Position numbers and translations under genes: made by a program. DNA of 64,000 nucleotides from Nymphaea colorata (lineage: Eukaryota; Streptophyta; Magnoliopsida; Nymphaeales; Nymphaeaceae): positions 3,265,528 to 3,329,527 of the forward strand of contig NC_045140.1 of the NCBI RefSeq assembly GCF_008831285.2, read 5' to 3'. Positions 50,559 to 51,943 of the stretch are shown piece after piece (the first letter of the stretch is position 1; every line of letters begins with the position of its first letter). The notes under the pieces were generated by a model. That model worked only from the letters and a program-made list of their open reading frames with translations. It was not told the DNA's origin and did no database searches.

Positions 50559-50694
50559 TGGCTCCTCCACCTCTCGTACAGACCCACAAACTCTCTTCGC
50601 TTTCCAGATCCTTCTGATCGAACGTGATGCTCTCTGCCGCACCGGCGAGAACCAGGCTTATCAGCAAAGCCAAAGAGAAGGATTTAATCCACAT
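50559..50694 (-). pseudogene. 5' fragment of CEP-type protease gene (left inverted-repeat arm)
   Basis: From the ATG at 50694 (minus) it reads [20 protein letters not shown], then a short prodomain start. One G of a run of four is missing (GTGGG-TCTG), so the frame shifts after ESLW. The homology stops at GGAGCCA. The upstream TATATATA (50826-50833) and leader are intact. It is a truncated, frame-shifted copy of the gene at 57543. Confidence 0.85.
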
Positions 50695-51008
50695 TTTACT
50701 TGGATCTTCTAGGAATTGAATTATTTTGGTTATTATAGAAGAACAAGGATTGGAAGACGATGGGGAATTGGAGAAGCAGAAGAAGGAATGGAAGACGATG
50801 GGGAAATGGAGAAGTGGGAAGTGCTTATATATAGTTAACAGAGGAGGAATATTATTTGTAATCACATGAGATCACATTCTTGCCAGTCTTTGCAATGGGT
50901 AGAGGAGTTGGAGAAAGGCACTTTTCATTTATTAGAACCCGTCATGGAATCAAAACTGAAAAAACCAGATATGGGTGTAATCATCCACTTTAAATCTCAT
51001 TATTATTA
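50559..51008. repeat. Left arm of ~450-bp inverted repeat
   Basis: The reverse complement of this arm matches 51493-51943 with about 12 differences that I could count (roughly 97% identity, one of them the single-base deletion). It covers promoter-proximal sequence, TATA box, leader and the first ~135 coding bases of the CEP-type protease. The two copies point away from each other, separated by a 484-bp spacer (51009-51492) that includes AGCTCGA-family words. Confidence 0.9.
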
Positions 51009-51492
51009 AGTTGTTATACGAGCTAAAATATGTAGAGTTCGAGTCCAAAAGTGAACTTGTCTGGTTAAACGAGCCGAGCTCAAGCTAGGTAGGCACGGCT
51101 TGTTTAAGTTCTAGCAGGTTCGAGGGGTGTGCATATGTGATGAAAAGTCGATAAACTATAAATGAAGAGCCATTTAGTATTTTAGGTCTGAGTCGGGCTG
51201 AGCTCGATGTGAGCCTGTTAGGGCTTGACCCCAAGTTCAAGATGGCTCGAGAACAGCACTATAACGACATATGCGACATAGGTGAAGGAAGTGATTCGCC
51301 GGCTTGCTGCATGCCTTGTTGACAATTTACTGAATAACATATCAACCAGAAAAGTACTGGCCATAGTGGTGTGGATAACAAAGATATAAAAAATAGTAAA
51401 GGCTGCAATGGGAGTTTTCTTTTTTCTTTTTTCGCTTTATGGGAATAACGGGAGCCAGTTAGATAAATCCAAGGGTCTAGTTTCAATGTTGA

Positions 51493-51943
51493 TAATAATA
51501 ATGAGATTTAAAGTGGATGATTACACCCATATCTGGTTTTTTCAGTTTTGATTCCATGACGGGTTCTAATAAATGAAAAGTGCCTTTCTCCAACTCCTCT
51601 ACCCATTACAAAGACTGGCAAGAATGTGATCTCATGTGATTACAGATAATATTCCTCCTCTGTTAACTATATATAAGCATTTCCCACTTCTCCAATTCCT
51701 CATCGTCTTCCATTCCTTCTTCTGCTTCTCCAATTCCCCATCGTCTTCCAATCCTTGTTCTTCTATAATAACCAAAAGAAATCAATTCCTAGAAGATCCA
51801 AGTAAAATGCGGATTAAATCCTTCTCTTTGGCTCTGCTGATAAGCCTGGTTCTCGCCGGTGCGGCAGAGAGCATCACGTTCGATCAGAAGGATCTGGAAA
51901 GCGGAGAGAGCTTGTGGGGTCTGTACGAGAGGTGGAGGAGCCA
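51493..51943. repeat. Right arm of ~450-bp inverted repeat
   Basis: Partner of 50559-51008. From about 51656 it is also near-identical to the 5' part of the intact protease (from about 57388), and that match continues beyond the arm to 52202. The segment 51493-51655 is shared by the two arms but not by the intact gene. Confidence 0.9.
51668..51675 (+). promoter_or_regulatory. TATA box, same sequence as the intact protease
   Basis: GTTAACTATATATAAGCA lies about 135 bp upstream of the ATG at 51807. The same sequence precedes the intact gene (57404-57411) and the left arm copy. Confidence 0.55.

Follow-up and report, generated by a model that had tools for sequence, protein, structure and literature searches.

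In the window, the 64,000-nucleotide stretch of the Nymphaea colorata genome that was analysed, two truncated 5' ends of a cysteine protease gene (copies A and B) face outward as an inverted pair, in the same stretch as the intact gene they resemble (gene C). We conclude that this A-B pair is recent and probably non-functional duplication debris, put together as a patchwork, and we give this reading a probability of about 0.75. The arms lie at breakpoints of rearrangements and in repeats, and this accounts for them without any role in silencing; the default expectation is that copy A is dead and copy B at most weakly transcribed.

Alignment confirmed the geometry first given for the inverted repeat, in which arm A spans 50559-51008 on the minus strand and arm B 51493-51943 on the plus strand, the two pointing outward around a spacer of 484 bp. 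Their identity, originally put at about 97%, is 97.3%, the 451 aligned columns holding 11 substitutions and a single gap of one base, and both carry the expected TATA box, leader and ATG, the leader of each with an internal near-repeat. BLAST draws slightly wider limits (50556-51946, 97.1% over 454 columns), in which 50556-50558 are junction bases; the sister copy of the block on the left also matches through 50558. The coordinates of these and the surrounding features are collected in Table 1. A search of the genome with 51400-51500, which covers the part of the spacer with no assigned origin, returned the self-match only, and 51419-51492 has a weak 45-bp T-rich match in L014, a locus on C5 discussed below.

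Table 1 Features of the inverted pair and of the sequence around it (window positions, except where a C number is given)
Feature	Position	Strand	Details
Segmental-duplication block	39506..50558	+	44929-48070 matchless; decayed-looking cysteine protease gene inside; ends at the start of arm A
Copy A, gene 5' end	50559..50851	-	TATA box 50824-50833, leader, ATG 50694, codons 1-45/46; from BLAST and alignment with B and C
Dispersed repeat R	50862..51418	-	adjoins copy A; first 147 bp in arm A, remainder makes up most of the spacer
Spacer	51009..51492	.	410 bp of repeat R and 74 bp (51419-51492) of no assigned origin
Mirrored R part in arm B	51493..51639	+	147 bp; from alignment with arm A
Copy B, gene 5' end	51650..52206	+	TATA box 51668-51677, leader, ATG 51807, codons 1-132; 52204-52206 junction
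Copy B open frame	51807..52262	+	151 aa; by eye a signal peptide, then the complete I29 propeptide and a new tail of about 19 residues before the stop
Dispersed repeat D	52207..52681	+	cut at the copy B junction; match to C8:18780938-18781501 from the first base
Gene C	57386..61803	+	exons 57543-57993, 59985-60217, 60353-60493, 61558-61803; spliced translation 356 aa
Larger inverted repeats of the related region	C3:21864823-21869264 and C3:21852746-21854710		same chromosome

The near-identical intact gene expected about 6 kb away is indeed present as gene C, which has four exons and encodes a papain-type cysteine protease with an I29 propeptide and a Peptidase_C1 domain (Pfam). Its PDB matches include 5ef4 and 1s4v; the latter, named a cysteine endopeptidase and found at 9e-100, is one that we take to be the Ricinus KDEL enzyme. 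The label CEP, originally attached to the family, stands as far as the papain-type catalytic domain and the I29 propeptide are concerned and falls at the tail, since a C-terminal KDEL is the defining trait of the KDEL-tailed cysteine endopeptidases (CEP) and gene C ends in DDEL. This DDEL, in place of KDEL, is encoded in the last exon (61558-61803), and the nearest paralogue of gene C, at C2:7605370-7607811, lacks an xDEL tail in the reading frame examined. Three AT-rich cores with GGCCCGGGC-like flanking tracts lie at 56200-56480, 58420-58730 and 58830-59100, two of them in inverted orientation inside intron 1 of gene C.

Searched against the assembly at E ≤ 0.001, the gene C protein gave 104 matches among the best-scored candidates; within these, the best exon-1 match besides A, B and C is C2:7605370 at 52% protein identity, and the nearest other first exons stand at 52-55%. 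Arm A has seven matches in the 408-Mb assembly (407.8 Mb, 783 contigs), three at the present locus and four on C5 and C9, these four being confined to the upstream part of the arm. Close copies of the gene C 5' end in the 408-Mb assembly, among the best-scored candidates, are A, B and C, at this locus only.

The extents of the copies can be read directly from the alignments. The homology of A and B to gene C starts at 57386, 18 bp above the gene C TATA box (57404-57413), and covers about 295 bp in arm A and about 555 bp in copy B (51650 to 52203-52206), which reaches about 260 bp past the end of arm B, while the upstream 157 bp of either arm have no counterpart at gene C. By BLAST, copy B aligns without gaps to 57386-57942 (557 bp, 97.8% identical) and copy A over 297 columns at 96.3%. 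The frame of copy A is broken by a 1-base deletion in codon 37, and the copy is cut at codon 45/46; copy B breaks at codon 132/133, which is the pro/mature boundary.

The three sequences have 294 columns in common, counted with base 51944 set aside as junction, and their private changes in these columns are five substitutions and the deletion in A, four substitutions in B and four in C. The pairwise differences are 10 for A-B, 10 for A-C and 8 for B-C, and over the longer shared lengths they are 12 of 451 columns (A-B) and 12 of 557 (B-C). Position 51751, in the internal repeat of the leader, suggests by eye that gene C has the older state and that A and B share a change. This position and the common repeat R would favour a sister relationship of A and B, but B has fewer differences from C than from A, and the branching that the alignment suggests is not clean; the order of events is read from three sequences, with no outgroup for the non-coding part. 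A, B and C are a few percent apart, as against 10-15% for the segmental duplication, and judged by this divergence all three are younger than the segmental duplication. Divergence along the arms, at 2/157 in the upstream part and 11/297 in the part shared with gene C (junction base included), does not differ significantly (Fisher p = 0.24), and we rejected the idea that it is uneven. In the comparison of 51650-51943 with A and C, the private substitutions include six C-to-T changes of the sense strand (three in A, two in B, one in C) and no G-to-A change, although 76 C and 57 G could have changed (one-sided 0.035, a post-hoc value from small numbers); this asymmetry comes perhaps from transcription-linked deamination.

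On the left, arm A begins at the edge of the segmental-duplication block. Sister copies of the block lie in tandem at C3:21843690-21849110 and 21855892-21862604, with part of a third from 21835821, and their pieces are 85-90% identical to the block in the window. The best of these, the second sister copy, tracks the window to 50558 (C3:21862604) and then runs into sequence of its own, without arm A; the first departs from the window in a (TA)n run near 50517, and both sisters share sequence further on. The decayed-looking cysteine protease gene inside the block (40380-42170) belongs to a subfamily other than that of gene C, has an in-frame stop near 41158 and has sisters at C3:21.84-21.86 Mb. 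An element at 49176-49607 has matching inverted ends of about 30 bp, further internal inverted matches, and relatives at other genomic sites. We considered as a source of read-through a copia-like gag relic at 49.8-50.1 kb; Pfam gave it no support, and we make no claim for it.

Between the copies, repeat R recurs at four further sites in the genome, on C5 and C9, which are 69-97% identical in pieces; one of them reaches 50862, and the other three start at 50911 or 50936. The spacer used as query finds the same four places as arm A. We tried R as an inherited CEP promoter and rejected this, because the gene C protein, at E ≤ 0.001, matches nothing in the four 9-kb R loci; for the same reason R looks like a dispersed repeat. 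It extends over 557 bp beside copy A and 147 bp on the B side, which excludes a simple perfect palindrome, a palindrome later trimmed at its centre being possible. The last 77 bp of the R part of arm B (51563-51639) match locus L014 at 97%. In L014, the 77 bp at 5471-5547 (C5:288470-288546), 97% identical to 50862-50938, abut R sequence whose identity to the window is only 81%, and this jump hints at a local transfer or conversion of recent date.

On the right, copy B gives way to repeat D. The C8 copy of D continues past the position of the junction, in sequence common to C3:21.85-21.87 Mb (whose matches to the window start at 52377), and D is therefore also cut at the copy B junction. Both outer junctions have at most a few shared bases. 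Around the A-B unit, no terminal inverted repeats above chance were found within 49000-50556 and 52207-54500, the best flanking inverted repeat scoring 12 (11-base exact seeds) as against 14 at the 95% level of 100 single-base shuffles, and the two flanks, each of them truncated, differ in sequence. In Pack-type gene capture the fragment is enclosed by the terminal inverted repeats of one element; we rejected transposon capture of this type, since the inverted repeats within these flanks do not exceed the shuffles and the flanks differ. The unit thus ends where other sequences are broken, a pattern in keeping with break repair rather than transposition. Outside the unit, an element at 52479-53072 has matching inverted ends of about 30 bp and related copies elsewhere in the genome.

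From these boundaries we infer the source copy, the mechanism of break repair and the sequence of steps. About 555 bp of gene C, starting shortly before its TATA box and reaching the pro/mature boundary, would have been copied beside the dispersed repeat R, and part of this first copy, together with its R sequence, would then have been recopied in inverted orientation, leaving two truncated 5' ends facing outward. One outer end would have been joined to the edge of the segmental duplication and the other to repeat D, with few shared junction bases at most, and the junctions would resemble those left by error-prone break repair with copied filler. The pair has much in common with truncated tandem or segmental duplicates, namely sharp ends at repeats or breakpoints, local position, divergence of a few percent and the frame damage of copy A, and differs from them in nothing essential, the head-to-head order being its sole special trait. 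Two features of copy B count against debris: it retains its TATA box, leader, ATG and full open frame, and its break falls near-exactly at the end of the propeptide, perhaps by chance and perhaps not.

The inverted repeat is the single one in the window at a length of at least 300 bp, an identity of at least 88% and a gap of at most 10 kb. A related 66.5-kb region at C3:21.83-21.90 Mb has two larger ones, of 1174 bp at 97.5% and of 824 bp at 89%. The scan drew on a biased sample, with one inverted repeat in the window, two in the 66.5-kb region and none in six other loci of 7.5-9 kb. The inverted repeat is far beyond chance, yet unexceptional for the genome. Inverted duplications may perhaps be common in sequence like that of the related C3 region.

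The original prediction saw in the arms a possible source of siRNAs that silence a paralogue in trans. As a rival to the debris reading, the arms would be a young hairpin-siRNA locus, whose transcript, starting in the left block or beyond copy B, would cross both arms, fold and be diced to 21-24-nt RNAs; these would cut the gene C mRNA or methylate the region of its TATA box and leader. The original claim that read-through RNA would form long double-stranded RNA with gene C sequence is borne out by the predicted fold of 50556-51946, which has an MFE of -966 kcal/mol and a longest uninterrupted helix of 115, and pairs 443 of the 453 arm-A bases with arm B. The locus also combines long, near-identical inverted arms with an intact homologous gene as possible target, and 103 of 433 21-mers of arm A and 127 of 434 of arm B are identical in gene C; 249 of the 434 in arm B pair perfectly with A, and 76 of these 249 are identical in gene C too. 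There are precedents in the chalcone synthase inverted repeat of soybean (passages of PMC3804491 and PMC6710647) and in inverted pseudogene copies, proposed as founders of miRNAs in part of PMC3237417. However, both visible TATA boxes point outward by eye, each giving sense RNA of the gene, and the divergent transcripts are for this reason not complementary. Silencing would require an RNA initiated beyond the arms and running through the pair of them, whereas a third, read-through promoter was not spotted by eye, and about one third of each arm is repeat R, which is absent from gene C. Rfam gave no match at the gathering score within 49000-62000. We consider a hairpin-siRNA locus acting on gene C unlikely; a silencing function would be possible, but improbable as the default.

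The soybean I locus likewise has inverted gene copies, of chalcone synthase, with homologous genes elsewhere as possible targets, but its arms are 10.9 kb long, with measured siRNAs and a seed-coat phenotype (in the same passages of PMC3804491 and PMC6710647), whereas those of the present locus are about 450 bp and hold 5' ends only. The inverted-duplication model of MIRNA origin also starts from a gene fragment lately copied in inverted orientation, the parental gene nearby being a possible target, in contrast to which the present arms stand head-to-head with outward promoters. An assembly artefact, such as a fold-back read or collapsed haplotypes, would account for the inverted arrangement itself, and is hardly credible: the arms show 12 differences in 451 columns, have unlike outer ends and enclose an asymmetric spacer of repeat R, whereas arms produced by a fold-back should be almost the same and adjoin each other, and the window is without N.

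The 151-aa propeptide frame of copy B is a new finding of the present analysis. Pfam finds in it PF08246 (5.8e-15, profile 1-59 of 59) and no Peptidase_C1, and copy B ends about three residues into the mature part, because mature-enzyme chains in the PDB, e.g. 1s4v, align to gene C from residue 130. Copy B might be a newborn stand-alone propeptide inhibitor, whose product would enter the secretory path with the gene C protease and inhibit it in trans; a complete I29 without a catalytic domain, under its own TATA box and ATG, is consistent with this. In barley, the propeptides of C1A proteases act in trans as inhibitors of their own enzymes and of related ones (part of PMC3355106), and stand-alone I29 inhibitors are known in animals, namely mouse, fly and silkworm (part of PMC4089206). 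Like CTLA-2, BCPI and crammer, copy B has I29 without the catalytic domain and, by eye, a signal peptide, but it differs from them in being very young, with a new tail of about 19 residues, and in being a putative inhibitor only. The propeptides described for Calotropis, in the sections of PMC6010012 consulted, were cut out of cysteine protease sequences, and a limited look at partial literature sources found no plant gene that is a natural propeptide-only inhibitor, which is not to claim that none is in print.

The substitutions of copy B speak against such an inhibitor, since B differs from C by four non-synonymous and three synonymous changes (pN/pS 0.37, Fisher p = 0.18), or by three and three without the junction codon 133 (pN/pS 0.28, p = 0.12), which is not different from neutral. 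A pN/pS below 1, although non-significant, leans to constraint on B, C or both. With about 4% of substitutions disabling, the frame of B would survive seven neutral substitutions with a probability of about 0.74 (indels not counted), an open frame being the neutral expectation too, and B has Gly at the positions of Glu33 and Asp86 of C. An inhibitor in copy B is in our judgement highly unlikely; such a function would be possible from the frame, but improbable as the default. The combined reading, in which one small rearrangement gave gene C two regulators, an siRNA-capable inverted repeat and the 151-aa propeptide inhibitor, has a very slim chance of being correct.

Taken as duplication debris, the locus is ordinary, and one of its breakpoints is placed nearly to the base by a sister of the left block. 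It also illustrates how the 5' end of one gene can give rise at the same time to a propeptide-only gene and to a potential hairpin. If the two-regulator reading were true, copy B would be the plant equivalent of CTLA-2 or BCPI, observed as it comes into being, and if either product were real, a plant protease would be silenced or inhibited by its own broken copy.
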